A stretch of 44,484 bases of DNA from the NCBI GenBank assembly GCA_003160115.1, contig PLQL01000023.1, positions 27,081 to 71,564 of the forward strand, in the 5' to 3' direction. Position numbers and translations under genes: made by a program. This stretch comes from Acidimicrobiaceae bacterium. Its GTDB lineage: Bacteria > Actinomycetota > Acidimicrobiia > Acidimicrobiales > RAAP-2. Under the pieces are notes generated by a model that saw only the letters and a program-made list of their open reading frames with translations, did no database searches and was not told where the DNA came from. Positions within the stretch are counted from its first letter, which is position 1. Each line of letters begins with the position of its first letter. Positions 20,876-44,484 of the stretch are shown here, piece after piece.

Positions 20876-21688
20876 CTACTTGCGCGCCCGGATGAACGCG
20901 TTGGCGACCGCTCCGTCGAGTTGGTCGAACGCCTCGCGCGTATTGACCTCAGGCGGTACCGCCATGGACTGCGCCCATTGTTCGAGGGTTGCTCGGTCGT
21001 GGATGACGGTTGGTTGGATCTCGATGTCGGTGAAACCAGCCGACGCCAACTTTGCCTCGTAGTCGATGTCCACGAGCGCACCCGCCACACAGCCAGTCCA
21101 CAACGCCGCGAGTTTCGCTAATACCTTGGGAAGGGGACGGCGCAAGATGACGTCCGAGACGGCGAACTGGCCACCTGGTCGCAACACGCGGTACGCCTCG
21201 CGCAGCACTTGATCCTTGTCAACCGACAGATTGATGACGCAGTTGGAGATGATCACGTCCACCGACTCGTCAGCGAGGGGAATGTCTTCGATCATGCCGA
21301 GGAGGAACTCCACGTTGTCGGCACCAGCTTCGGCTTGGTTGCGCCGGGCGAGAGCGAGCATCTCGGGAGTCATGTCGAGTCCGTAGACCTTGCCGGAGGG
21401 TCCGACCCGACGCGCGGACAACAGCACGTCGATGCCACCGCCCGAACCTAGATCCAATACGACCTGGCCCTCCTCGAGGTTCGCCAGCATCGTGGGATTC
21501 CCGCAACCCAGGGACGCCGCCACGGCATCTGGGGGCAGGTCGCCCACTTGGCTGTCGTAGAGCGACGAGCCGAAACCCTCACCCACGTTGACGTCGGCGT
21601 CACCTCCGCCGCGTTGGACAGCGATTGCGGCCCAAGCGTAACGTTCGCGCACCGCGTCGCGGATTGATTCTTCGCCTCTATCGGTCAT
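20876..21688 (-). CDS. arsM: Arsenite S-adenosylmethionine methyltransferase
   Basis: SAM-dependent enzyme that methylates arsenite to mono-, di- and trimethyl species. The SAM motif VLDLGSGGGIDVLLSA is followed by LDMTPEMLALA. The three conserved arsenic-binding cysteines are present: C62 in SLGCGNPT, C150 in SNCVINLS and C200 in TGCVAGAL. The ATG at 21688 has AGGGG upstream; a GTG two codons earlier is also possible. It is the last gene of the minus-strand ars operon, 46 bp after arsC. Confidence 0.95.
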   Translation of the reverse strand: MTDRGEESIRDAVRERYAWAAIAVQRGGGDADVNVGEGFGSSLYDSQVGDLPPDAVAASLGCGNPTMLANLEEGQVVLDLGSGGGIDVLLSARRVGPSGKVYGLDMTPEMLALARRNQAEAGADNVEFLLGMIEDIPLADESVDVIISNCVINLSVDKDQVLREAYRVLRPGGQFAVSDVILRRPLPKVLAKLAALWTGCVAGALVDIDYEAKLASAGFTDIEIQPTVIHDRATLEQWAQSMAVPPEVNTREAFDQLDGAVANAFIRARK

Positions 21689-21734
21689 GGGCACTCCCCT
21701 TCCTCTCTTTCGAATACTGATCGACGGGCCGTGT

Positions 21735-22154
21735 TCACGTGGGCTCGGATCGTCCGCCCGCGAGTTCAGCCAGAAGCGAGGTCACCCGTTCACGGATCTC
21801 GTCGCGAATTCGGCGCACGACCTCGAGATCCTTGCCTTTGGGGTCATCGAGTTCCCAGTCGACGTAGCGCGTGCCCGGATACATCGGGCACGCGTCACCG
21901 CAGCCCATCGTCACCACGACATCGGCGCTACGTCCCATCTCGTCGGTGAGCTTCTTGGGCGATTCGTCGGCAATATCTATGCCAACCTCGGCCATCGCGG
22001 CGACGACCGCCGGATTCAAACGCTCGCCAGGCGTGGAACCGGCGGAGTGCACGAGGACTTGACCGGCTCCGAGCGTGCGGGCGAAACCGGCCGCCATCTG
22101 CGATCGACCAGCGTTGTGTACGCACAAGAACAGGATCTCGGGGCGAGAGGTCAC
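21735..22154 (-). CDS. arsC: Arsenate reductase, LMW-phosphatase type
   Basis: Reduces arsenate to arsenite before export or methylation. The 139-residue protein has the low-molecular-weight phosphatase P-loop CVHNAGRSQMAAG with nucleophile C11, and C85/C89 in TMGCGDACP, where thioredoxin- or mycothiol-linked ArsC proteins carry redox cysteines. ADESPKKLTDEM is also typical. In actinobacteria the electron donor may be mycothiol or thioredoxin; the sequence alone does not decide. It overlaps the end of acr3 by 4 bp. Confidence 0.94.
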   Translation of the reverse strand: MTSRPEILFLCVHNAGRSQMAAGFARTLGAGQVLVHSAGSTPGERLNPAVVAAMAEVGIDIADESPKKLTDEMGRSADVVVTMGCGDACPMYPGTRYVDWELDDPKGKDLEVVRRIRDEIRERVTSLLAELAGGRSEPT

Positions 22155-23257
22155 AGTTGCACCGTGTTTGAGATCGGGAAGAAGCGTCGTTTGGCCCAGA
22201 GTGAAACGTAGACCAGACCAACGAGGACGGGCACTTCGATCAGGGGCCCGACCACGCCAGCGAGGGCTTCCCCGCTGGTTACCCCGAAGACTCCGATCGC
22301 CACCGCGATTGCCAATTCGAAGTTGTTGCCGGCTGCGGTGAATGCCAGCGTCGCCGTGCGGTCATAGGGCAAACCGAGCGATCGACCGAGGGCAAATGAA
22401 CCGAACCACATGATTGCGAAGTAGCAAAGGAGCGGAAGTGCGATGCGCGCCACTGCGCCGGGACGCGAGGTGATCGTATGACCTTGCAGGGCAAAGAGGA
22501 TAATGACCGTATAGAGCAGACCATAAAGCGCAAAGGGCCCAAGCCTCGGTAGGAACTTCGTCTCGTACCAGTCTCGTCCTTTAAGCCGTTCAGCCCACGT
22601 GCGGGTGAGGTAACCCGCAATGAGAGGTACGCCAAGGAAGATCCCCACGGTTTCGGCAATCTTAAATACGGACAGGTTTAAGTCTTGGCTATTGAGACCG
22701 AGCCATCCGGGTAGGACCTTTAAGTAGAAGTAACCAAGGAAAGCGAAGGCGAAGATTTGAAAGAGTGAGTTGAGCGCCACGAGGACTGCGGCGGCTTCAC
22801 GGCTTCCCCCAGAGAGGTCGTTCCAGATGAGCACCATTGCAATGCAGCGAGCGAGACCAACGATTATCAGACCAGTTCGATAGGTGGGCAGATTTGGAAG
22901 CAGTAACCACGCGAACGTGAACATGACTGCAGGACCTACGAGCCAGTTAAGGACAAGTGACGTGACGAGTAATTTTCGGTCACGGGTTACAGTGTCGATT
23001 CGGTCGTAGCGGACTTTCGCCAACACTGGGTACATCATCACCAAGAGCCCAAGGAAAATGGGGAGCGACGTGCCCGATGTCACTTGTATCGCATTGAGAT
23101 GTGAGCCGAGACTTGGAATCGACCGTCCCATGCCGATGCCAATGATCATGGCAAGACCCAACCACAATGGTAGAAACCGGTCGAGAAGCGAAAGTCGCGT
23201 GATCACCGAGGCGAGGTTGATTGAATCTTCTCGCTGCGCAGTTTGGGACTCGCTCAT
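22151..23257 (-). CDS. acr3: Arsenite efflux permease, Acr3 family
   Basis: Membrane permease of the BART superfamily exporting As(III). About ten hydrophobic helices are visible. The TM4 cysteine block LARCIAMVLIWNDLSGG is diagnostic of Acr3, with the conserved catalytic cysteine in RCIAMV. Near the C-terminus AAGNNFELAIAVAIGVFG gives the family's broken-helix NNFELA motif. The start at 23257 gives 368 residues and a natural N-terminus; the longer frame overlaps arsI and is rejected. It lies 31 bp after arsI and is coupled to arsC. Confidence 0.94.
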   Translation of the reverse strand: MSESQTAQREDSINLASVITRLSLLDRFLPLWLGLAMIIGIGMGRSIPSLGSHLNAIQVTSGTSLPIFLGLLVMMYPVLAKVRYDRIDTVTRDRKLLVTSLVLNWLVGPAVMFTFAWLLLPNLPTYRTGLIIVGLARCIAMVLIWNDLSGGSREAAAVLVALNSLFQIFAFAFLGYFYLKVLPGWLGLNSQDLNLSVFKIAETVGIFLGVPLIAGYLTRTWAERLKGRDWYETKFLPRLGPFALYGLLYTVIILFALQGHTITSRPGAVARIALPLLCYFAIMWFGSFALGRSLGLPYDRTATLAFTAAGNNFELAIAVAIGVFGVTSGEALAGVVGPLIEVPVLVGLVYVSLWAKRRFFPISNTVQL

Positions 23258-23288
23258 GGCTCGGTGCTCAAATTGAGTTCGGTGTACG

Positions 23289-23744
23289 TCAGCAACACGA
23301 TGTGGATCCAATAGTGAGAGTTGCATCTTCATCAGTGTCCGACGCGCAGCACGAGCCATCGCCAGACAGTTCGTGGTCGCTCGCGTCGGCGAGGACCGTG
23401 TAGACCTCCCAGCGCTGTTTATCCGGCCCCTGTACCCACACCTTGTCTTGCAGGGCGTGGCAACAAGTGGTGCCGACTTCAACGTCGGTGACCATACCTT
23501 GATCAGCCAAGTACTTTGTCGCCGTCACCACTTCGTCGGTCGAGAAAACCTCAACGCCGAGGTGATTAATGGTTCCGCCGATGCCGGGGTTCTCGAAGAG
23601 AACGAGTTTGAGCGGCGGTTCTTCGATCGCGAAGTTGGCATAACCAGGACGAATCTTGGCCGGCTCGGTCTTGAAGAACGATGTGTAAAACGCGACTGCT
23701 TCGTCGAGATCAGACACATTGAGCGCTAGTTGTAGTCGGGACAC
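23289..23744 (-). CDS. arsI: ArsI/CadI C-As bond lyase (VOC family)
   Basis: VOC-fold Fe(II) dioxygenase family that cleaves the C-As bond of trivalent organoarsenicals; the mycobacterial CadI belongs here and, from memory, is very similar over the first 120 residues. Candidate metal ligands are Q5, H61 and E113. The substrate-binding thiol pair is C94-C95 in GTTCCHALQDKVWV. The C-terminal tail is cysteine-rich (GSCCAS ... STSCC). The GTG start has AAGGAG upstream. It is the first gene of the ars operon and divergent from arsR. Confidence 0.92.
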   Translation of the reverse strand: MSRLQLALNVSDLDEAVAFYTSFFKTEPAKIRPGYANFAIEEPPLKLVLFENPGIGGTINHLGVEVFSTDEVVTATKYLADQGMVTDVEVGTTCCHALQDKVWVQGPDKQRWEVYTVLADASDHELSGDGSCCASDTDEDATLTIGSTSCC

Positions 23745-23758
23745 CGTGGCTCCTTAGA

Positions 23759-23808
23759 TTGATGATTATCGATGAGACAATAGCGTACACATTGATGACT
23801 GTCAATGA
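23759..23808. promoter_or_regulatory. Two ArsR-type operator candidates in the arsR/arsI gap
   Basis: Two related 17-bp sites, TTGATGATTATCGATGA (23759-23775) and TTGATGACTGTCAATGA (23792-23808), agree at 14 of 17 positions and start 33 bp apart, about three helical turns. The second contains the inverted repeat ATTGA-N6-TCAAT, the usual half-site form for ArsR/SmtB repressors. Their position between the divergent starts suits joint repression of arsR and arsIBCM-type genes. Seen directly; ArsR binding is inference. Confidence 0.7.
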
Positions 23809-23820
23809 TAGAATTTATAT

Positions 23821-24165
23821 ATGTCGAACTCCAAGTTGACGTTGATTGACGACGCCGTCCTACGGTGCTGCAGCCCGCTGGCGGGGGGCGCCTTGTCAGA
23901 AGCCGAAGCGGACGATCTGGCTCAGATTTTCGCGGCTTTAAGCGACCCCGTGCGGCTGCGCATGCTCTCGTTGATTGCAACAGAGGACGAGGTCTGTAGT
24001 TGCAATCTTGAAGAGCCACTTGCCAAAAGTCAACCCACGATCTCTCATCACACCCGGATTCTCGTTGAAGCTGGACTGATTACTGGTGAGAAGCGAGGGC
24101 GCTGGGTGTGGTGGCACGTCGTGCCCGAACGCTTAAGGCAGGTCGCGCGAATCCTCGGCGACTGA
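23821..24165 (+). CDS. arsR: ArsR-family metalloregulator
   Basis: Winged-helix repressor of 114 residues that would sense As(III) and control the ars genes. The helix-turn-helix is LAKSQPTISHHTRILVEAGLI, preceded by ALSDPVRLRMLSLIA. Cysteine pairs C16-C17 near the N-terminus and C59/C61 in EVCSCNLEE are candidate arsenite ligands, a placement seen in some actinobacterial ArsR proteins and different from the E. coli CVC site in the recognition helix. It is divergent from arsI across a 76-bp gap that carries two operator-like sites. Confidence 0.93.
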   Translation: MSNSKLTLIDDAVLRCCSPLAGGALSEAEADDLAQIFAALSDPVRLRMLSLIATEDEVCSCNLEEPLAKSQPTISHHTRILVEAGLITGEKRGRWVWWHVVPERLRQVARILGD

Positions 24166-35759: not shown

Positions 35760-36102
35760 GGCGAATTCCGTGCGTCTGAACGCAATTGGCCTACTTCATG
35801 CGGGCGGGCGATGGGAAAGAAGGTGCATTCCGAGTTCTGATGTTGATAATCCAGGTTGGTTCATCAAGCAGGACAAGCGGACAAGGGTGACAGAATCTCG
35901 ACGGTCGCATGGTCGCGCCTCGACGGCGAGGTCGTCGTATTTTCGAAGCCCCGTTAGAGCACAGCGCCATATCTTGATCACGTAACTGACGTTGATTAAA
36001 GGTTAAATGCATCGAACAACGAGATTAGAATCTGCGTGCCCAGCCACGAAAGCTGACGTACGGCCGAAAACTGCGAATTCGTCAGTCTGGGTCCTCGGGG
36101 AA
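35760..36102. other. 343-bp gap, no gene seen
   Basis: Short frames exist on both strands but none looks like a protein. The region separates two unrelated genes facing each other. Confidence 0.5.
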
Positions 36103-37902
36103 TCAGCTTGACGACATGCCTCCGCCAAGCAGGGCCGGAAGACCGGTGTTGCGCATTCGCATGAGAACCCGATGCGTGACCTTGACGGCGTCGGGGTGGA
36201 GTCCACCGTTGGAAAGAACCCGTGACTCCCACGCGGCAGCACGGCTTTCGAAGGTCTTCGCGTCGTCAAGTTGAAGGCAATCGAGTCGGTCCTCGTTGAT
36301 GTCGACCGTAATGGTGTCACCGTCTTCTATGAGGGCGATGGGTCCTCCGAGTAGTGCTTCTGGTGCGACGTGACCGATGACCAATCCGACGGAACCACCC
36401 GAGAACCGAGCGTCCGTCATCAAGGCAATCGTGATGCCACGTTTGCGGCACAAGGAGGTGATCTTCGACGTGGGGTCGAGCATCTCAGGCATTCCTGGCG
36501 CACCGCGTGGCCCTTCGTAGCGAATCACCACCATGTCGTTGTCATGAAACTCATCGGGCCGTTCGTCGAGTGCGTCAATCAATGACCGCTCCCCGTTGAA
36601 CACGCGTGCCCTCCCAGTGAAAACCCCGTCAGCGATTCCGCTTTCGATACCGGCGAGTTTCAAAATGGCGCCTCCGTCCGGGGCCAGATTCCCGCGCAGC
36701 AATCGAAGCCCACCGGTGCTCTTGAATGGTTGGGCGACTGAGTAGATCACTTCGTGATCAGCGGGCGGGGGAGCCAAGCGATCAATCTGCTGAGCGAGTG
36801 TCTCGCCGGTACAGGTGATGGCACTGCCGTCGAGGAAACCGGCCATCATTAACTCGTTTACGACCGTAGGAAGTCCGCCAGCGCCGTCAACGTCGACCAT
36901 GGAGTACGTCCCGAACGGACGCATGTTGACAATGACGGGCAAGTGATGAGACAAAGCATTGAATTCGTCCTGGCTGAGGACGTCCTTCCACAAGTCGATT
37001 CCTGCGGCACGGGCGATCTCAACACTGTGCAGCATGACGTTGGTCGAACCACCCATGGCCATCGTGACGATAAGGGCGTTGCGAAGCGAAGTGGGCGTGA
37101 CGATATCTCGTGGGCGAATGTCGCGGATGGTCATCGTCACGAGACAGTCGACGAGTTCATCTGGGAACTGCTCGAGACGACGGGGATCGTCCGAGGGTGG
37201 AGCGATCATGTGGAGTGGCTCGAGACCTACAACACCAATGAATGTCTGCATGGTGTTGTAGGTGAACATGCCTCCACAACTACCCTGGCCCGGACACGCG
37301 TGAAGCGTGACCTCGGTCCGGGCTTGTTCGTCGGGGTTCGTGGCGAACTGAAAAGCCGTCACCAGGTCAATACGATCACCGGTCCGTGGATTAATGCCGG
37401 GCTTGATTGATCCATCAGAAAGAATCACCCCGGGAACATTGTGCTCAAGGAGCGCCGCCACCGTGCCGACCGGCGGCTTGTCGCAGGCGACGACCGCAAT
37501 CATTCCTTCGATTTGATTCGCGGCGAGGTGCGTAGAAGCCGCGTCGTTCACGAGCTCTCGTCCGATGAGAGAAAAGCGCATTTCTGGAGTGCCGTTGAGT
37601 TGCCCATCGGACACGCCAATGGTGAAGGCAGGAGGAATGAGCCGGTTTGCTCGGTCGTCCTGTTTGATTCGACGCGACATGGAAGCCTGCACGGCGTGCA
37701 CCTTTTCCTGGACTCCCAGGTAACACTGGCTGTCGCCCAGGTTGCCGAGTACGGCCCACACGGGTCCGTGGATCTTAGCGACATCCTGACCCAAGAAGTT
37801 GGCAGTGCCGACGCGCTGCACGTCACGTCCGGGGTTCGGAAAAGTCGCACCGGAGGTTCCGCGCACGTCCACTCTTGAAGAAGAATTTTCGGGTTGGGTC
37901 AT
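36103..37902 (-). CDS. IlvD/Edd-family Fe-S dehydratase
   Basis: A 599-residue dehydratase of the family including dihydroxy-acid dehydratase (IlvD), 6-phosphogluconate dehydratase and sugar-acid dehydratases. Fe-S ligand candidates are C60 (GDSQC), C140 (VACDKPP) and C209 (CPGQGSCGGMF). The blocks FGGSTN-like MAMGGSTNVML, GPRGAPGMPEML and DARFSGGSVGLVIGHVAPEA are conserved. Block one differs from true IlvD (NEITPCN) and GMHFSL is PEMRFSL, so a sugar-acid or other substrate is as likely as valine/isoleucine synthesis. No other ilv gene is nearby. The ATG lacks a clear ribosome binding site. Confidence 0.87.
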   Translation of the reverse strand: MTQPENSSSRVDVRGTSGATFPNPGRDVQRVGTANFLGQDVAKIHGPVWAVLGNLGDSQCYLGVQEKVHAVQASMSRRIKQDDRANRLIPPAFTIGVSDGQLNGTPEMRFSLIGRELVNDAASTHLAANQIEGMIAVVACDKPPVGTVAALLEHNVPGVILSDGSIKPGINPRTGDRIDLVTAFQFATNPDEQARTEVTLHACPGQGSCGGMFTYNTMQTFIGVVGLEPLHMIAPPSDDPRRLEQFPDELVDCLVTMTIRDIRPRDIVTPTSLRNALIVTMAMGGSTNVMLHSVEIARAAGIDLWKDVLSQDEFNALSHHLPVIVNMRPFGTYSMVDVDGAGGLPTVVNELMMAGFLDGSAITCTGETLAQQIDRLAPPPADHEVIYSVAQPFKSTGGLRLLRGNLAPDGGAILKLAGIESGIADGVFTGRARVFNGERSLIDALDERPDEFHDNDMVVIRYEGPRGAPGMPEMLDPTSKITSLCRKRGITIALMTDARFSGGSVGLVIGHVAPEALLGGPIALIEDGDTITVDINEDRLDCLQLDDAKTFESRAAAWESRVLSNGGLHPDAVKVTHRVLMRMRNTGLPALLGGGMSSS

Positions 37903-37995
37903 TTTGAAAGTGTACCGACCTGGCGTAGAGCTCTTCAGGTCCCGATGAACCTCTGATGTCGTTGGGACCAGGTGACGACGATCGAACCTACGTTC

Positions 37996-38559
37996 TTAGC
38001 TCGCGGTGACGATCTTGAGTTCGACGAACAACGCTCGGATGAGTTGCGCTAGATCTTGCTCGTTGGCTTCACCGATCCAGCGTGCAAAGGCAATCTTTAG
38101 AACTGCGATCCCCGCCTCAGCGCTCAGACTCGCGCTGGGTTCTGCGACACCGCGCTGACGCAATGCGCCGGCCATCGCTGAGACGAGTGACGCGAGCTTG
38201 ATCAACTCCCGCTCCTGGAGTTCGGTGTTCGTAGCGATGACGGTCTGGCGCAACAAGACGCCTTCGCGCTGCTCCTGGAACACGGCCCCGGCTGCCTGAA
38301 TGGCCGCACTGATTGCAACGATTGGTGCATCTGACTCGGGGGCATCGGCGACGGTGCTCACGAGGAGTTCCTGCAATGCGCCAGCACCCCAGAACAGCAC
38401 CTCGCGCTTGTCGGCAAAGTAACGGAAAAACGTCCGCTCCGTTAGCCCTGCCAATTCGGCGATCTCGGCCACCGTCGTTTGATCAAAACCTTGGCCGACG
38501 TAAAGCTCGAGTGCCGCTTGCATGAGCCGACCGCGTGCGTTTGGCTCCCACCGGCTCAT
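37996..38559 (-). CDS. TetR-family transcriptional regulator
   Basis: A 187-residue regulator with an N-terminal helix-turn-helix (RGRLMQAALELYVGQGFDQT ... TVAEIAELAGLTERTFFRYFADKREVLF) and an unrelated ligand-binding C-terminus. The ATG at 38559 gives the usual short arm before the first helix. It is divergent from an epimerase gene; two operator-like sites lie between them, so autoregulation and control of the epimerase are likely. Confidence 0.92.
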   Translation of the reverse strand: MSRWEPNARGRLMQAALELYVGQGFDQTTVAEIAELAGLTERTFFRYFADKREVLFWGAGALQELLVSTVADAPESDAPIVAISAAIQAAGAVFQEQREGVLLRQTVIATNTELQERELIKLASLVSAMAGALRQRGVAEPSASLSAEAGIAVLKIAFARWIGEANEQDLAQLIRALFVELKIVTAS

Positions 38560-38576
38560 GCCTTGATGGTACCTGA

Positions 38577-38624
38577 TGACAGTAAGTGACATCGTGTGCT
38601 AAGGTCATGTCAGTGAATGACATC
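38577..38624. promoter_or_regulatory. Two operator-like sites between tetR and the epimerase gene
   Basis: TGACAGTAAGTGACATC (38577-38593) and TGTCAGTGAATGACATC (38608-38624) agree at 14 of 17 positions and are 31 bp apart, about three turns. The second is an inverted repeat, TGTCA-N5-TGACA. The arrangement fits two TetR dimer sites controlling both divergent promoters. Binding is inferred. Confidence 0.65.
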
Positions 38625-38676
38625 ACTCCCTGGTCGCTTAACCGTAGGCGAAAGGGCAATCGCTTGGAGGTTACCT

Positions 38677-39612
38677 ATGCGTGTTCTTGTTACCGGAGCG
38701 TCTGGCTGGATTGGCTCTGCCGTGGTCCCAGAACTTCTTGGCGCGGGCCATCAGGTCATCGGGCTCGCACGTTCGGATGACTCGGCCGTCGCTCTGATCG
38801 CCGCCGGTGCCGAGGTGCATCGTGGCTCCCTGGACGACCTCGACAGTCTGCGCAGTGCCGCTGATGAGTCAGACGGTGTGATTCACCTCGCCTTTAAGCA
38901 CGACCTCGCCTTCACCGGTAACTTCCAGGCGGCTGCCGATGCCGATCGGCGCGCCGTCGAAGTCTTTGGCGAAGCTCTCGCGGGTTCGGATCATCCCCTC
39001 GTCATCGCCTCGGGAACCCTCGGGCTCGCACCAGGTCGGGTGGCAACCGAACTTGATGGACACTATGACGATCCGTCGGCGCCCATTTTCGACGAGGGCC
39101 CGAGCATTCGATGGGCCACAGCGGAGTACGTACTCTCCCTCGCTTCACGAGGTGTTCGTTCGTCTGTCATGCGTCTGCCTCCGACCAATCACGGCGACGG
39201 CGACCATGGTTTTATCGCGACAATTGTTGCCATCGCACGCGACAAGGGCGTCTCTGGTTACATCGGTGACGGTTCAAATCGCTGGCCAACGGTGCACCGA
39301 CTCGATTCCGCACGGCTCTTTCATCTGGCGCTGGAGGGGGCACCGACGGGTTCAACGTTGCACGCCGTCGCCGAAGAAGGTGTTCCAATTCGTGACGTCG
39401 CCGAAGTCATCGGTCGACACCTCGACCTCCCCGTAGTCTCGATCTCACCCGAAGACGCGGACCAGCATTTCACGTGGCTAGCCCGCTTCCTCGCAGCCGA
39501 TAGTCCGGCCTCGAGCGCGCGAACTCGCGAGATGCTGGGATGGCAGCCGACCCAGCCCGGGCTCATTGACGATCTCGAGCAAGGTCACTACTTCGACAAG
39601 CCATCCGCGTAA
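38677..39612 (+). CDS. NAD(P)-dependent epimerase/dehydratase-like SDR
   Basis: A 311-residue extended short-chain dehydrogenase. The Rossmann glycine motif is VTGASGWIGSAVV near the N-terminus, followed by GLARSDDSA, which lacks the acidic residue of strict NAD binders and so suggests NADP. A DGVIHLAFKHD segment and a catalytic region with SGTLGLAPG and a WATAEYVLSLA segment (YxxxK-like Lys absent) follow; the canonical YxxxK is not obvious. GGAGGTTACCT precedes the ATG. Probable target of the divergent TetR regulator; substrate unknown. Confidence 0.87.
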   Translation: MRVLVTGASGWIGSAVVPELLGAGHQVIGLARSDDSAVALIAAGAEVHRGSLDDLDSLRSAADESDGVIHLAFKHDLAFTGNFQAAADADRRAVEVFGEALAGSDHPLVIASGTLGLAPGRVATELDGHYDDPSAPIFDEGPSIRWATAEYVLSLASRGVRSSVMRLPPTNHGDGDHGFIATIVAIARDKGVSGYIGDGSNRWPTVHRLDSARLFHLALEGAPTGSTLHAVAEEGVPIRDVAEVIGRHLDLPVVSISPEDADQHFTWLARFLAADSPASSARTREMLGWQPTQPGLIDDLEQGHYFDKPSA

Positions 39613-39691
39613 TCGCATCGAACCGTGGAAGGGCGGCGCACCGGGGTTGGAGCGACAAAATCGGCACGGATCGAGCGCTCGCTGAAGCGCA

Positions 39692-39747
39692 GTTGAAGCG
39701 GGCGGTGAAAATCGAACTCGCGATCTCAACTTGGGAAGTGGATGAAC
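39692..39747 (-). repeat. Degenerate tRNA-Gly 3'-end copy (candidate attL of element 1)
   Basis: Aligned without gaps to 42878-42933, it matches at 49 of 56 positions. It covers the reverse complement of a tRNA-Gly from acceptor 3' strand through the anticodon loop, plus about eight bases beyond (GGATG-AC) that are shared with the 42.9-kb copy. It cannot fold as a tRNA, since the 5' half is missing. Such 3'-end duplications are what tyrosine integrases leave when they use a tRNA gene as attB. Confidence 0.7.
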
Positions 39748-39813
39748 CTTCAAAACATGGATGCAAGAAACCATGATCAATGAGCATTAACTAGGACGAT
39801 TTGGTGCGCCGAT

Positions 39814-39830
39814 TGGGCTTTGGATACTAC
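39814..39830. repeat. Degenerate arm-type repeat near element 1 left end
   Basis: TGGGCTTTGGATACTAC resembles TGGGCTCTGG...ACACTAC at 42760-42780 if a 4-base gap is allowed. It begins 75 bases after the core. Weak alone, but its position is similar to that of the clear repeats at the other ends. Confidence 0.3.
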
Positions 39831-40048
39831 GAAGTTCGGAGGTAGCTGCGCCACTTGGAAACTTGGATCGTCGAATCGGCACTGGGCCACGCCGACCTGG
39901 TAGCTATATGTACAGGAAAAGAAAAAGAAAATCGTCGCGGTTAATTCGACGGCGGTCCAACCTTCGGCGCGCCAGAGGATTTCGGTTCACACCAAACCCA
40001 GCGCGCTGCGAAGAAGTTGTTAGGGGCACAAGCGTTGATTCGCCCAGC

Positions 40049-41017
40049 TCAGCTTACGGTGATGATGACTTTCCCTCGCGCATGACCTTCTTCCACGTAA
40101 CTCACTGCCGCTGGCGTCTCACGCAGCGGGTAAGTCCGATCGATGAGAGGAGCGACGTCGCCTGACAGCACGAGCGTGGACAACGTCTCAAGGTTCTCCG
40201 GCGTGACCACCGCCATGACGCTTCGAATCTGCTGGCGAACGAGGGGTGAGACAACTACCGCTTTCAATGACAGCGCTATTGGTCGAAACCACTTCCCACT
40301 TCCTCCACCCGCGACGACGAGCGTTCCCCGCGGCTTCAGTGCGCGACGAAGGTCGCTGAGGGTTCGATTCCCAATCGTGTCCACGACCACGTCATATCGC
40401 CGGGACCGCCGAGCGAAATCATCATGCGAATAGTCGATGACCTCGGCGGCGCCGATTGACTTCACTAATTCAACATTCCTCGTGCTACACACGCCGGTCA
40501 CCTCGGCACCGAGTGACTTCGCGATCTGAACTGCGAAGGAGCCAACACCTCCGGAGGCGCCGTTGACGAGGACCGACATTCCTGATTCGACCTGTCCCTT
40601 GTCTCGAACGGCCAAGAGGGCGGTGTTTCCAGCGCAGGGAAGAGACGCCGCTGACTCGAAAGTCAAAGCGTCGGGCTTGGATACGAGGCGCTTCTCATCT
40701 GCGGCGGAATATTCGGCGAAGGCTCCCCTGGCGAGACCGAAGACTTTGTCACCGGGTTCGAACCGCGTGACCTTCGCGCCGACGGCGATAACGGTGCCCG
40801 CTGCATCGATACCCACCTCCGGGTTCTTCGGACGCCGAAAGCCAGCACTTACTCGCAACAGGTAGGGCTCGCCGCGGACCAGGTGCCAGTCGTACGGGTT
40901 GACGGAACTCGTGTGCACCTCCATGAGGACATCGCTGTCTCCTACCTCCGGCGTCGGAATCTCATCGAACGAGAGGCTCTCACCTGGTCCGTATACAGTT
41001 CTCCGAATTGCCTTCAT
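40049..41017 (-). CDS. Zinc-independent MDR oxidoreductase (quinone-oxidoreductase-like)
   Basis: A 322-residue NAD(P)-dependent medium-chain dehydrogenase/reductase. The catalytic-domain block is VHTSSVNPYDWHLVRG, followed by NPEVGIDAAGTVIAVG and the Rossmann motif NGASGGVGSFAVQIAKSLGA. The Cys/His zinc ligands of alcohol dehydrogenases are absent, as in quinone reductases. GAAGGG lies before the ATG-ATG pair (41020/41017). It is divergent from a TetR gene across a palindrome, a standard arrangement for stress- or xenobiotic-responsive reductases. Confidence 0.9.
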   Translation of the reverse strand: MKAIRRTVYGPGESLSFDEIPTPEVGDSDVLMEVHTSSVNPYDWHLVRGEPYLLRVSAGFRRPKNPEVGIDAAGTVIAVGAKVTRFEPGDKVFGLARGAFAEYSAADEKRLVSKPDALTFESAASLPCAGNTALLAVRDKGQVESGMSVLVNGASGGVGSFAVQIAKSLGAEVTGVCSTRNVELVKSIGAAEVIDYSHDDFARRSRRYDVVVDTIGNRTLSDLRRALKPRGTLVVAGGGSGKWFRPIALSLKAVVVSPLVRQQIRSVMAVVTPENLETLSTLVLSGDVAPLIDRTYPLRETPAAVSYVEEGHARGKVIITVS

Positions 41018-41061
41018 CATTGATCCCTTCACCATGGAGGAGGATTTCTTTACGCCGTATC

Positions 41062-41093
41062 CTTACATCGTATACTAATTCATACTGTGTAAG
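41062..41093. promoter_or_regulatory. TetR operator candidate, 32-bp imperfect palindrome
   Basis: CTTACATCGTAT and ATACTGTGTAAG face each other around an 8-base spacer; 10 of 12 positions pair. The site ends just before the tetR ATG and lies between the divergent oxidoreductase and tetR starts, so the regulator probably represses both. Binding is inferred. Confidence 0.75.
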
Positions 41094-41094
41094 T

Positions 41095-41790
41095 ATGTCA
41101 AGTGTGCCACGCCAGCCACGAACACATCGAACGAGGACCCCGCTCAGCAGGGACCGGATTCTGCGGACCGCCCTCGACATGGCGGACAGCATGGGACTTG
41201 ATTCCCTGACCATGCGTGCACTCGGACAAGCTCTCGGTGTCGAGGCGATGTCGCTCTATAACTACGTAGAGGACAAGGACGATATCCTCAGCGGAATCGT
41301 GGACCTCGTGCTCAACGAGATTGATCTCGTGCCCGCCGCCAGTGACTGGCGATCGGACGTGCGAGCGACGGCGGTGTCAACTCATGAGGCTCTGCTTCGT
41401 CATCCTTGGGCGACCCGGCTCGTTCTCGCACCGACTTCAGTTCGCATGGTCTCCGCGCGAATGGGTTACATCGAGTCGATCCTCGCGAGACTCCGTAATG
41501 CTGGGTTCACGCCCGAGGCGGCTTCGAGGGGCTACCACGCACTCGATAGCCACATTCTTGGATTCACGATCTGGCAACTCGGTCACGCCCTCCCTGCAGA
41601 CTCCCCCCCCGACTTCATCGACACCCTGATGCGTCAGCTCAATCCCGACACCTTCCCTTACCTCGTCGAGCACGCCGCAGTGCATATGAATACGCCAGAG
41701 GGTGAGGAAGAGAGTGAGTTCGAGTTTGGCCTTGACCTCATCCTCGACGGACTTGAGAGATACGTGAACTCGACATGGAACCGGTCTTGA
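41095..41790 (+). CDS. TetR-family regulator (TetR_C class)
   Basis: A 231-residue repressor. The N-terminal helix-turn-helix region is SRDRILRTALDMADSMGLDS ... LTMRALGQALGVEAMSLYNYVEDKDDIL; the LYNYV form is typical of the TetR/TetR_C subgroup. The C-terminal domain holds HPWATRLVLAP and a HILGFTIWQLGHAL helix. The ATG at 41095 is favoured over longer frames because it follows the palindrome and gives the usual arm length. Confidence 0.92.
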   Translation: MSSVPRQPRTHRTRTPLSRDRILRTALDMADSMGLDSLTMRALGQALGVEAMSLYNYVEDKDDILSGIVDLVLNEIDLVPAASDWRSDVRATAVSTHEALLRHPWATRLVLAPTSVRMVSARMGYIESILARLRNAGFTPEAASRGYHALDSHILGFTIWQLGHALPADSPPDFIDTLMRQLNPDTFPYLVEHAAVHMNTPEGEEESEFEFGLDLILDGLERYVNSTWNRS

Positions 41791-41854
41791 CTGGAAAAGG
41801 ACCAACCCGGGTTCTCGTCGAGATCCAACTGTGCCAGTAGCGTGCGACTTGGCG

Positions 41855-41875
41855 CATAACTATGTTTTGCTTATG
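41855..41875. promoter_or_regulatory. Short inverted repeat before the MazE-like antitoxin
   Basis: CATAA and TTATG are inverted around 11 bases, ending 2 bp before the antitoxin ATG. Toxin-antitoxin promoters usually carry such antitoxin-binding sites; this one is short and could be chance. Confidence 0.35.
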
Positions 41876-41877
41876 GC

Positions 41878-42114
41878 ATGGTTAGGACACGGGTGAGCAC
41901 GACGGTGGATGGCGAACTCTTGGAAGAGGCTCGGCGCCTACGAGCGAACGTGAACGACGCCACGCTGTTTGACGAAGCTCTCATCGCTCTCGTCGCTCGT
42001 AATCGTGCACGTGAGATCGACAGTGCTCACGCTGGGTACGGCGAATTCCCAATCGATGATTCCGACGAATGGGGCAACCTCGCCGAGTTTCGTGCTGGCG
42101 TAGCTGCCTCGTGA
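41878..42114 (+). CDS. MazE-like (ribbon-helix-helix) antitoxin
   Basis: A 78-residue protein beginning MVRTRVSTTVDGELLEEARR, a ribbon-helix-helix DNA-binding start, followed by a helix (TLFDEALIALVARNRAREID) and an acidic C-terminus (FPIDDSDEWGNLAEFRAG) of the kind that wraps and inhibits MazF toxins. Its stop overlaps the toxin ATG by one base (TGATG), the usual coupling of such modules. Confidence 0.88.
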   Translation: MVRTRVSTTVDGELLEEARRLRANVNDATLFDEALIALVARNRAREIDSAHAGYGEFPIDDSDEWGNLAEFRAGVAAS

Positions 42115-42440
42115 TGCCAACGCCCCTGAGGGGTGAAATGTGGTGGTGCGAGGTACCGGAGATTCAACGAAGACCGGTCGTTGTGATGTCGCACGATGCG
42201 GCAATTCTGAGATTGCAGCGCACGTTGATCGCCCCTTGCACGACGACGATTCGTAATCTCCCAAGCGAAGTCATCCTCGAGCCCGGCGAGGATCCAATTG
42301 GTCGCCGCTGTGGAGTCAACCTCGATTCGGTCGAAAGCGTCTCGATCTCGATTCTCGCGGAAAGAATCGGACGCTTAAGCGACGGACGGATGCGTGAGAT
42401 CTGCGCTGCCTTAGATGTTGCGGTTAGTTGTGGAGAATGA
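42114..42440 (+). CDS. MazF/PemK-family endoribonuclease toxin
   Basis: A 108-residue toxin of the MazF fold. TPLRGEMWWCEVPEIQRRPV is the typical first strand and RRP motif. VVVMSHDAAI, LIAPCTTTIRNLPSEVILEPG and the GVNLDSVESVSISILAERIGRLS region continue the family pattern, ending with MREICAALDVAV. It would cleave single-stranded mRNA until bound by the preceding antitoxin. I start it at the coupled ATG; the frame stays open upstream within the antitoxin gene. Confidence 0.9.
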   Translation: MPTPLRGEMWWCEVPEIQRRPVVVMSHDAAILRLQRTLIAPCTTTIRNLPSEVILEPGEDPIGRRCGVNLDSVESVSISILAERIGRLSDGRMREICAALDVAVSCGE

Positions 42441-42759
42441 GTACCTTGTCACGAATTGACGACACACTCTAGAAGTGAGTAGCCGAATCGTACGGTTCGG
42501 TTCTCTTGACATTGACTTCCTCTAGCGAGATCCGGTCGTTGGTCGCGAAGTATCTCTTGGCGAGGATGAGGGACAGCCGGCGAGCAACGCAGTACTTCTT
42601 TCGAAGTTCGATTTCGATCGTTGGTGGCGTCCTCAGGCGAGTTTGCTGAGTGCACTCGTGCTTAAGAGTTTCGGAAAGAACTCGCGTTTCATTTGGCAAC
42701 GGTGGATGACTTGCTGTCTTCGTCAGGCATTCGAAGATTCATTAAACTCAGGAAGATTT

Positions 42760-42781
42760 TGGGCTCTGGGTGGACACTACT
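42760..42781. repeat. Degenerate arm-type repeat, right end of element 1
   Basis: Matches 44309-44330 at 18 of 22 positions (core of the match GTGG-CACTACT). It lies 99 bases before the 42.88-kb core, while its counterpart lies 109 bases before the 44.44-kb core. This supports reading 42.76-42.93 kb as a right-end junction homologous to 44.31-44.48 kb. Confidence 0.6.
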
Positions 42782-42879
42782 GACCTAAACAACGAACCCA
42801 AAAAGACGAAAATAACGTTGGACTCCGATTTAGCCACAACGCGTTTATTCCCTTTCATCAGGGTTGATATCTACTCCGT

Positions 42880-42925
42880 TGGAGCGGGCGACGAGAATCG
42901 AACTCGCGTTCTCAACTTGGGAAGC
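42880..42925 (-). repeat. tRNA-Gly 3'-end copy (shared att junction of elements 1 and 2)
   Basis: Differs by a single base from the tRNA-Gly sequence 44439-44484 over 46 bases, covering encoded CCA, acceptor strand, T arm, variable loop and anticodon loop. After the loop it continues with GGATGTAC, which does not rebuild the tRNA 5' half, so this is a partial copy. Similarity also extends outward: TCATCAGG occurs about 25 bases before both cores. Confidence 0.85.
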
Positions 42926-43008
42926 GGATGTACGCGCGAGATTAACGTTCAATTTATACCTGATCAAGGGTCATATTTCTTCGATATTGAACTGACCGAA
43001 TTCATCGC

Positions 43009-43028
43009 GGGCACTCCATGGGCACTCC
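43009..43028. repeat. Two GGGCACTCC repeats, left inner end of element 2
   Basis: GGGCACTCC at 43009-43017 and 43020-43028, 11 bp apart, begin 84 bases inside the 42.88-kb core. The same nonamer, same orientation and same 11-bp period recurs at the right end. Position and spacing suit integrase arm-type binding sites. Confidence 0.65.
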
Positions 43029-43202
43029 TTGTAATCCAAACGCATCGTTGAAGGTGGAACCTACGGCGGCGGAAGTAGGTTTCCTACCTTTGCGTTCGAG
43101 TACGTCGGCTTAACTCGAGCCGGTGACGGAAAGGCGATCCTTGTAACAGTGCCCTGACTGCTCGGGTTCGTCTTCGGCTACGTGATGTTCAGGAAGTTGG
43201 TT

Positions 43203-43724
43203 TCACTCACCGATCAACGACCGACGGGCGTCTTTCAAGAGAAGAACCAAATGTAGATCGTCAGTGGGACTCGGCTGCAATTCCGGAATGAGGTGGAGAT
43301 AAAAGGCGCGCGCAACTTCGCTCTCCGCATGAATTAATAGCCCCCGACAACCAATGTCGTCGCTCAGCGTGAGTAGACGACTGACGACGTCAACCAAGAG
43401 ACCGGAACCCAACCCCTTACCGACATGTCCAGAGTCGACGCCGAGTCGAGCGAGAAGTGCCACAGGTTGTGGATACCGGCCAGCACCCTTCTTCAGCCGA
43501 TCCGGTGCTGCCGCGAGATCTAGTTGGGCCATACACCACGCGTAGTAGGCGATGACAGTCGAATTGTCCTCTGTGGTGACCACGAATACCCGAGTCGTGC
43601 CCGTCGACATTGACTGTTTCGCGTATCGACGAAGCCACTGAGTCTGTTCCGTTGAAGCGCAATTGAACTTGTCGACATTGTCTGTCGTCAGAATTGGGCG
43701 AGGTGGTCGATACAGAGGGCTCAC
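43203..43724 (-). CDS. tacT: GNAT toxin, TacT family
   Basis: A 173-residue acetyltransferase toxin that acetylates the amino group of charged tRNAs and blocks translation. The family pattern is clear: CASTEQTQWLRRYAKQSM, TTRVFVVT, VIAYYAWCMAQLDL, LLARLGVDSGH, the acetyl-CoA motif VGKGLGSGLL (101-110) and HAESEVARAFYLH with the catalytic tyrosine Y142. It overlaps the antitoxin stop by 4 bp. It is one of only two evident genes between the 42.88- and 44.44-kb att copies. The exact tRNA target is unknown. Confidence 0.92.
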   Translation of the reverse strand: MSPLYRPPRPILTTDNVDKFNCASTEQTQWLRRYAKQSMSTGTTRVFVVTTEDNSTVIAYYAWCMAQLDLAAAPDRLKKGAGRYPQPVALLARLGVDSGHVGKGLGSGLLVDVVSRLLTLSDDIGCRGLLIHAESEVARAFYLHLIPELQPSPTDDLHLVLLLKDARRSLIGE

Positions 43725-44002
43725 TCGGTGAACGGCGAAGGTCGATTCATGAGGCGACGCAAACTATCTAGCTCGCGCGCGGGCAGATTGTTCATTTTGT
43801 CCCAATGTTTCGCCGCTTCGCTCGAGAGTACGAAGTGGTCACGATCGGCCAAGACCTGGCGCGAGGCATCCACCAGGTTTGTGACGACAAAGGAAGTGAG
43901 GTCGGTCCCGACCTCCTCGGCCGCACGATTGATTAGATTGCGTTCTTCGAGGGTTGTCCTGACCTCGAGTCGCTTGTCCCTGGTTCGGATGGAGGTCGCC
44001 AT
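43721..44002 (-). CDS. tacA: DUF1778 ribbon-helix-helix antitoxin, TacA family
   Basis: A 93-residue antitoxin: ribbon-helix-helix N-terminus (RDKRLEVRTTLEERNLINRA), DLTSFVVTNLVDASRQVL helix and a C-terminal toxin-binding arm (FVLSSEAAKHWDKMNNLPAR). It represses its own operon and neutralises TacT. GGGGAGAA precedes the ATG. A direct repeat upstream is a likely operator. Confidence 0.93.
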   Translation of the reverse strand: MATSIRTRDKRLEVRTTLEERNLINRAAEEVGTDLTSFVVTNLVDASRQVLADRDHFVLSSEAAKHWDKMNNLPARELDSLRRLMNRPSPFTE

Positions 44003-44023
44003 TGTTCTCCCCTGTCATTCTCG

Positions 44024-44044
44024 TTGTACGGCCATTGTACGGCC
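44024..44044. promoter_or_regulatory. Direct-repeat operator candidate upstream of tacA
   Basis: TTGTACGGCC occurs twice (44024-44033 and 44035-44044), one helical turn apart, 22 bp upstream of the tacA start. Each contains the palindrome GTAC. Ribbon-helix-helix antitoxins typically bind such spaced repeats cooperatively; binding here is inferred. Confidence 0.65.
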
Positions 44045-44309
44045 TCGATGAGTCGTTGTCAAGCAAGACTTGAATCACAACGGTTCTAAGTATCATGAGA
44101 TTGATTGAAAGAGCCCGTCTTAGTTAGCAGTGGACATTGGCGACGGAACAACTATCTCGAAGCATTGCTCTCGGGTGCTCTCAGCTGAGTTTGCTGAGAG
44201 TCGAACGCGCATAATTTGCTCAAAACGAATTCGACATTCAAGCGACAGTGTCGACTCACTTGTTTCGTTGGTCAAGCTCGCGATGGATCTCTCAACCGAA
44301 AACGAAACT

Positions 44310-44340
44310 GGGCACTCCGTGGGCACTACTTGGGCACTCT
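44310..44340. repeat. Three GGGCACT repeats, right inner end of element 2
   Basis: GGGCACTCC, GGGCACTAC and GGGCACTCT at 44310, 44321 and 44332, each 11 bp apart, end about 100 bases before the tRNA-Gly 3' end. The first matches the two copies at 43009-43028 exactly. Candidate arm-type sites of the integrase that moved the element. Confidence 0.65.
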
Positions 44341-44362
44341 GAGTTCAAAAATGAACTCAGAG
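44337..44362. repeat. Perfect 11-bp hairpin downstream of tRNA-Gly
   Basis: CTCTGAGTTCA and TGAACTCAGAG are exact complements around a four-A loop. It lies 76 bp beyond the tRNA 3' end in its direction of transcription. No T-run follows in either direction, so a terminator is only one possibility; it directly abuts the GGGCACT repeats. Confidence 0.6.
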
Positions 44363-44438
44363 GAATCGAATTAAAGTATCTGTCCTTGTTTGCCCGTTGA
44401 GCATTAACCATCACTCATCAGGATGGTTATTATTTTCT

Positions 44439-44484
44439 TGGAGCGGGCGACGAGAATCGAACTCGCGTTCTCAGCTTGGGAAGC
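44439..44484 (-). tRNA. tRNA-Gly(CCC), 3' part (cut by window edge)
   Basis: Read on the minus strand, the sequence gives the anticodon loop TTCCCAA (anticodon CCC, from 44478-44480), 3' anticodon stem GCTGA, a short variable loop, the T arm GCGAGTTCGATTCTCGT, acceptor strand CGCCCGC, discriminator T and an encoded CCA. U73 and the CCC anticodon identify glycine. The 5' half lies beyond the window. This gene is the likely attB of the accessory region. Confidence 0.85.

Follow-up and report, generated by a model that had tools for sequence, protein, structure and literature searches.

The general kind of structure described here is already known from ssrA islands, CIME accretion, tandem AICEs and islands marked by tRNA-Lys repeats. 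CIMEs, as treated in work on ICESt1-type accretion, possess attL and attR sites, carry no integration or transfer genes, and form stacks at the 3' end of the gene that serves as target (PMC5704250). In Dehalococcoides the islands at ssrA are arranged in tandem and fenced by copies of the 3' end of the RNA gene; 15 of the 31 are without an integration module and were termed possible cis-mobilizable elements (PMC3146451). For AICEs such as pSAM2, tandem arrangements at tRNA-Lys and tRNA-Arg genes have been reported (PMC3218068), and the additive islands of Methylophilaceae, marked by 20-nt tRNA-Lys repeats, range in size from 330 bp to 42 kb and are varied in content (PMC10872708). CALINs consist of integron cassettes without an integrase of their own, which are moved by one encoded elsewhere (PMC11389934).

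We examined a stretch of 44,484 nucleotides (referred to as the window) from an Acidimicrobiaceae bacterium, at the right edge of which a toxin-antitoxin (TA) pair, tacAT, lies between two copies of the 3' end of a tRNA-Gly gene. Its likeness to CIME accretion consists in att-bounded, machinery-less units stacked at the 3' end of the target (PMC5704250); the units described here, however, can be as small as 0.6-2 kb, holding a single gene or TA pair, and have typed arm-like sites at fixed registers. For ICESt1-type elements, accretion has in addition been demonstrated by transfer. The Dehalococcoides islands involve the serine recombinase DsiB and tmRNA (PMC3146451), whereas the target here is tRNA-Gly and the integrases found at tRNA-Gly(CCC) belong to the tyrosine integrase family (PF00589). 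Elements of the genus share with AICEs (PMC3218068) the integrase family, RepSA, an FtsK-type protein and a tRNA 3' end as target, but the tacAT unit itself has no AICE gene at all, neither an integrase of its own nor RepSA nor an FtsK-type transfer protein. Recurring tRNA tails are also a feature of the Methylophilaceae islands, for which the available portion of the account mentions neither arm sites nor TA-only units (PMC10872708), and cassettes that lack an integrase and depend on a helper elsewhere are what CALINs have in common with the locus (PMC11389934). A literature search for tRNA genomic islands with an integrase and toxin-antitoxin genes in Acidimicrobi- taxa returned no report, and among the papers surveyed, mainly by title and the opening of the abstract, no tRNA-bounded TA-only element was found, nor any TA-only unit with matched arm sites.

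The tacAT unit is bounded by the cores at 42880 and 44439, which form part of 47-nt direct repeats (42879-42925 and 44438-44484) that agree at 46 of 47 positions (98%) and are spaced 1559 bp apart. An earlier note, made from the letters alone, had pointed to this repeat of the tRNA-Gly 3' end in the same orientation with one mismatch, and the comparison bears it out. The boundary that it placed at the anticodon loop is likewise confirmed, as the 28 nt following the 42880 core resemble the tRNA 5' half about as closely as random 28-mers do (7.3 +/- 2.3 identities; Table 1). The single mismatch of this core falls within the likely crossover region. Between the cores tacA and tacT are the sole genes, as had been claimed: a gene for a TacA-type antitoxin is followed, with an overlap of 4 bases, by one for a predicted GNAT toxin, whose closest solved relative is 7f37 and whose 15 matches also include 7ak7 and 5fvj. 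This is the arrangement of TacAT pairs, and the proteins themselves are ordinary. TacT family toxins acetylate aminoacyl-tRNA. The GGGCACT repeats described inside both ends of the unit were located at 43009-43031 and 44310-44343. A tblastn search that used 15 local-family integrases as queries, at E up to 1, found no integrase in the unit, in agreement with the earlier note, and the predicted genes of the unit include no conjugation genes and no remnant ICE/IME gene. The unit thus has the composition of a CIME, namely two bounding att sites without integrase and conjugation genes between them. DNA resembling tacAT occurs at six other loci, in congeners or at order level; the stretches examined there, some of which lie on short contigs, contained no core with up to 10 mismatches.

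Table 1. Cores, arm-like sites and cargo genes of the array at the right edge of the window.
Feature	Position	Strand	Details
3' 46 nt of tRNA-Gly(CCC), or further core copy	44439..44484	-	0 mismatches; identical to 3' half of full ARAGORN-called tRNA-Gly(ccc) in congeners; contig terminus
Three GT-type arm-like sites	44310..44338	-	GGGCACT on +; +101/+112/+123 from core, tRNA orientation
tacA, antitoxin, 93 aa	43721..44002	-	PF08681 TacA1 1.2e-15; 7zg5 chain C 6.5e-4
tacT, predicted GNAT toxin, up to 173 aa	43203..43724	-	PF00583 4e-4; 7f37 6.2e-23 and 14 other solved sequences
Two GT-type arm-like sites	43009..43026	-	-100/-89 from 42880 core; register common to other copies
Second core (att) copy	42880..42925	-	1 mismatch; 5' side vs tRNA 5' half 9/28
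PemK/MazF-type toxin gene, unit 39694-42880	42138..42440	+	PF02452 2.8e-14, frame read from 42114
Small antitoxin-like gene, 78 aa, unit 39694-42880	41878..42114	+	no family match of its own
TetR-family regulator, unit 39694-42880	41092..41790	+	PF02909 9.7e-19, PF00440 1.1e-5
Alcohol dehydrogenase-like gene, unit 39694-42880	40049..41035	-	PF13602 5.7e-25, PF00107 2e-17
Third core copy	39694..39739	-	7 mismatches
Fourth core copy, degenerate	37964..38009	-	15 mismatches; reversed-window control begins at 20
IlvD/Edd-type dehydratase gene (by resemblance), cargo of 1956-bp unit 36008-37964	36103..37902	-	
Fifth core copy, degenerate	36008..36053	-	16 mismatches

Scanning the window with a 46-nt core identified five cores on the same strand (Table 1). 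When the sequence was reversed as a control, the best match in the window had 20 mismatches, and 1,096,616 bases of reversed loci contained none with 16 or fewer. The tacAT unit is therefore not the lone element that it had been taken for, but the tRNA-proximal member of an array that comprises at least four; its description as a minimal, integrase-less, att-bounded (CIME-like) element stands, and its terminal repeats lie at registers that such sites occupy in the genus. The next unit outward carries an alcohol dehydrogenase gene, a TetR regulator gene and a PemK/MazF-type toxin pair, and a homologue of its 78-aa antitoxin-like gene (L043:4602-4838) has a sub-threshold match to VapB_antitoxin (0.019). 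The third unit (37964-39694) contains a TetR-like and an epimerase-like gene, as judged from translations. The outermost unit has a counterpart in G017 that is also 1956 bp long and is flanked by two better-kept cores (window 36087-38001 versus L028:13328-15242, 83.9% identity over 1916 bp). Core decay is monotone with distance across the five copies of the window; for the arrays taken together, the idea that decay follows rank or distance relative to the tRNA was rejected (rho -0.18 for 25 copies; rho 0.14, P = 0.47 for 31 copies). Elsewhere in the window, positions 20876-24165 appear, from the translations, to encode an arsenic gene set (methyltransferase, ArsC-like, ACR3-like, glyoxalase-like and ArsR-like proteins).

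The window extends to the right-hand terminus of contig C32 (71564 bp) in a host assembly of 1.9 Mb, 39 contigs and 86.1% completeness, and this is why tRNA-Gly is represented there only by its 3' 46 nt. ARAGORN called no tRNA in the window. The tRNA-Gly gene that the earlier note placed at this edge is accordingly present as to these 46 bases and absent as a whole gene, its 5' half being the end of contig C31 (118228 bp) of the same genome, downstream of a dcd-like gene. C31 breaks off 14 nt into the 3' half of the tRNA, and the ends of C31 and C32 have 14 core bases in common. The junction of the two contigs is very likely the tRNA-Gly gene itself, and additional units may lie between them. 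Among 20 hand-picked loci, contig ends at a core or within 50 bp of one are frequent (window 44484, L046, L079, L080, L116, L121, L122 and L125), as if assemblies were broken at unresolved copies, so that arrays in cells may exceed their assembled length.

Beside cores of the genus we found paired NNGCCC sites, 10-12 bp apart (about 11), confined to narrow bands. Such pairs were counted 71 times at +70 to +129 downstream of 114 copies, and once at other positions within 290 bp; on the upstream side of 75 partial copies there were 28 at -120 to -81 and 3 outside that band; the 5' flanks of 43 full tRNAs, which served as a control, contained none. Given their fixed distances from cores and their absence from the control flank, the pairs look as integrase arm sites would. 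The two leading letters vary among elements (GT, GC, AT, CT, TT, AC), and the GGGCACT repeats of the window are of the GT type, present at both ends of the tacAT unit, where they resemble the sites of AICEs at tRNA-Gly(CCC). The right end of the unit has the common register; the arms at its left end are shifted, the usual positions elsewhere being +84/85, +95 and +116 (compare Table 1). Where both ends of an interval could be typed, they were of the same type in 10 of 12 cases (permutation mean 4.1, P = 2e-4) under a lenient rule that lets mixed ends match if one type is shared, and unlike in the remaining 2. Recognised arms are absent at many core copies, and short mazEF units have none; a second set of sites, unlike these, also exists.

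A 33-nt part of the core, with up to 3 mismatches allowed, occurs in 75 of the 99 genomes of the genus, the control pattern giving zero matches, and 46 of the 99 have at least two copies when full tRNAs are counted in. A phage was considered as carrier and rejected, as a 38-nt core pattern had 0 exact matches in viral contigs. The cargo at this tRNA differs between genomes: the earlier note would have given up its interpretation if all relatives carried tacAT here, but in G089 and G015 something other than tacAT stands at this tRNA. The order in G089 is a dcd-like gene, the tRNA, a 4.17-kb unit with phosphonate-type genes (judged from translations), a remnant core and a TetR/epimerase pair that is 77.0% identical to that of the window over 1549 bp; in G015 a 660-bp mazEF unit stands at tRNA-Gly. 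A mazEF block that includes its core recurs in G009, G015, G086, G045 and G095 at 80-89% identity, and the mazEF genes of the window match it at 74-77%, the adjacent core not being included. Other shared pieces are a DUF4143 ATPase unit common to G028 and G119 and hipBA-type DNA found beside cores in G027 and G045 (92.7% over 1770 bp; HipA_C 1.6e-43). A series of short units beside the tRNA in G028 includes this ATPase as well as a Phd/ParE pair (1.9e-14, 5e-15) and several other small pairs of genes. GT sites, at one end or at both, mark six integrase-less intervals that differ in cargo (window, 1559 bp; L078, 1675 bp; L027, 1828 bp; L033, 1837 bp; L083, 3435 bp; L077, 4959 bp), and none of the six has a match to local integrases at E below 0.05. 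The right end of L078 is like that of the window (76% over 146 bp), while its cargo is different.

The idea that the arrays consist mainly of TA cassettes was rejected. In a set of 106 predicted proteins from 38 intervals of up to 6.5 kb (with TacT read from a longer start, and omitting TA genes missed by the simple gene caller, such as HigB in L042), none of 127 Pfam families had more than 4 members, so TA pairs are not the rule. Among the 18 intervals of up to 2.4 kb, 10 measure at most 1.6 kb, and 5 of these 10 contain a supported TA pair: the tacAT unit, three mazEF units (one by a PemK match at 3.1e-16, two by 87-89% DNA identity only) and L027 7323-7928 (MazE_antitoxin 6.1e-9, with a partner gene that has no match). 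Two other pairs in L027 are TA-like by layout alone, with no match to a TA family, and 3 of the 10 intervals hold other genes. The comparison set from the 5' side of full tRNAs, covering 106 of 217 proteins (the first part of the list, with several edge-cut genes omitted and some kept), yielded DCD (18), Fe-S domains (18) and ammonium transporter (11).

An integrase-bearing element with the same core and arms, which the earlier note had suggested looking for, is present in G045 (L131), where four GT sites come after tRNA-Gly(CCC), and with them an integrase (2.3e-11) and RepSA (1.6e-89). An AICE-like set with CT arms occupies tRNA-Gly(CCC) in G030 (L031) and comprises the complete AICE trio of FtsK/SpoIIIE (7.5e-18), RepSA (1.3e-97) and integrase (6.4e-14), together with HTH_17 (9.8e-11). 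Relatives of the G045 integrase in G091 and G094 (75% over 308 residues, the translation of one being interrupted by a stop) occur with four GT sites at tRNA-Gly(TCC) (L122 2913-4305 and L124 5459-6865, in G094 and G091, respectively), and would represent a switch of target with the arm type kept. RepSA scores above cut-off in 32 of the 99 genomes and is absent from the host assembly. The host does encode an integrase of the pSAM2-like family, on contig C12 (4435 bp), in a frame interrupted by two N; it matches at 62.8% over 331 residues the integrase of G041, which stands at tRNA-Gly(CCC). Its first 62 residues are nearest to the GT-type enzyme of G045 (0.74, versus 0.72 for an AT type), and the remainder is nearest to the GC types (0.72, versus 0.55 for G045). 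No core with up to 14 mismatches was found in the 3936 bases of C12 examined. We regard this integrase as a candidate helper and nothing beyond that. At another locus, L153 5484-9428 (G007:C39), the stretch on the 5' side of a full tRNA-Gly, between it and a mechanosensitive-channel-like gene, contains small TA-like pairs along with a mazE-like gene and part of an integrase (62.7% over 185 residues to that of L117).

We consider it probable that the tacAT segment is non-autonomous, a unit of CIME type stacked with others in an accretion array at an integration hot spot, and that a pSAM2-like integrase mobilises it in trans. This reading draws on the five same-strand cores and their empty control, on arm-like pairs in narrow bands that the flanks of full tRNAs lack, on GT sites at both ends of the unit and matched types in most typed intervals, on integrases accompanied by RepSA at tRNA-Gly(CCC) in elements with GT and CT arms together with the C12 integrase of the host, and on the different cargo of L078, G089 and G015. 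In this view a tyrosine integrase of the pSAM2-like (AICE) family, which uses this tRNA in the genus, would act in trans on the 3' end of tRNA-Gly, bringing units in by site-specific recombination, and it could release them in the same way; in this host the C12 enzyme is a candidate for that part, and TacAT would penalise cells that lose the excised circle. Arm-site binding, excision, the choice of helper and the stabilising role of TacAT are inferences, and the support for mobilisation in trans by an AICE integrase, which would make the unit more than a relic, is circumstantial. What counts against this reading is that RepSA is missing from the host and a core from the part of C12 examined, that the N-domain of the C12 integrase leans only slightly to the GT type, that decay shows no gradient across arrays, and that many copies are arm-less and two intervals have unlike ends even under the lenient rule.

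Three further points against mobilisation in trans, the shifted left arms, the core mismatch in the likely crossover region and the arm-less mazEF units, would fit if the segment were instead a fossil: an AICE at tRNA-Gly stripped down to a deletion-resistant TA pair, its ends now inert. The mazEF units resemble such remnants, and the strong decay of the outer cores also fits. We judge this origin rather unlikely, though deserving of real weight, since GT sites have been retained at both ends while the outer cores decayed, six integrase-less intervals with GT sites carry different cargo, and the right end recurs in L078. An array could also be built with no integrase at all, by homologous recombination between the repeated tRNA tails, and this would account for arm-less units and for shared blocks that cross a core into the next unit, as in the DUF4143 ATPase unit (L027/L166, 92.3% over 1722 bp); arm-like sites at fixed registers, matched end types and integrases beside the tRNA would be unexpected, which makes this origin very improbable. 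That the extra copies, oriented as the tRNA is, are decayed genes from tandem tRNA duplication is hardly credible, since among 124 distinct core copies (44 in full tRNAs and 80 partial, from 50 genomes) the 28 nt past the core show 3-14 identities to the tRNA 5' half in 77 partial copies (9 and 8 of 28 in those of the window) and 26-28 in full tRNAs, with no intermediates. This bimodal distribution excludes decayed duplicates for the copies examined, including the 42880 copy, for which the earlier note had named such an origin as a refutation of its reading, and sets the boundary at the anticodon loop.

If mobilisation in trans is correct, TA-only units of 0.6-2 kb are inserted at a tRNA gene by the integrases of other elements, and TA pairs need no carrier of their own to spread and accumulate, a point relevant to the long-standing question of why they are so numerous in chromosomes. 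The tacAT unit may in this sense be a hitchhiker moved by the enzyme of another element, and with arm-like sites that fall into types, sequence comparison and a simple excision assay can test which helper goes with which hitchhiker. Integrons have attC sites and the IntI integrase. A genus-wide system of an integron-like kind is a speculative extension that we would sooner doubt than accept: tRNA-Gly 3' ends would serve as cassette sites, and AICE integrases, with N domains that recognise a two-base arm code, would act in trans to capture, stack and shuffle a family of integrase-less mini-elements, of which the six intervals with GT sites are examples. TA-only units would then be the smallest, selfish form, comparable to MITEs but dependent on a tyrosine integrase. 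Such arrays would differ from CALINs in having tRNA 3' ends for attC and an AICE-type integrase for IntI, and the sites at this locus are indeed tRNA-Gly 3' ends rather than attC-type sites.

Two smaller motifs were also observed. A partly palindromic 19-nt repeat (CTCAG..TTTGCTGAG, 89%) is present at 42632-42650 and 44180-44198, about 230-260 bp inside the tacAT unit and the next unit outward. A TGATCAGG-like motif, possibly the site of another recombination protein, lies about 35-40 bp before the distal core in several element right ends (window, L122, L078, L027 and L077).
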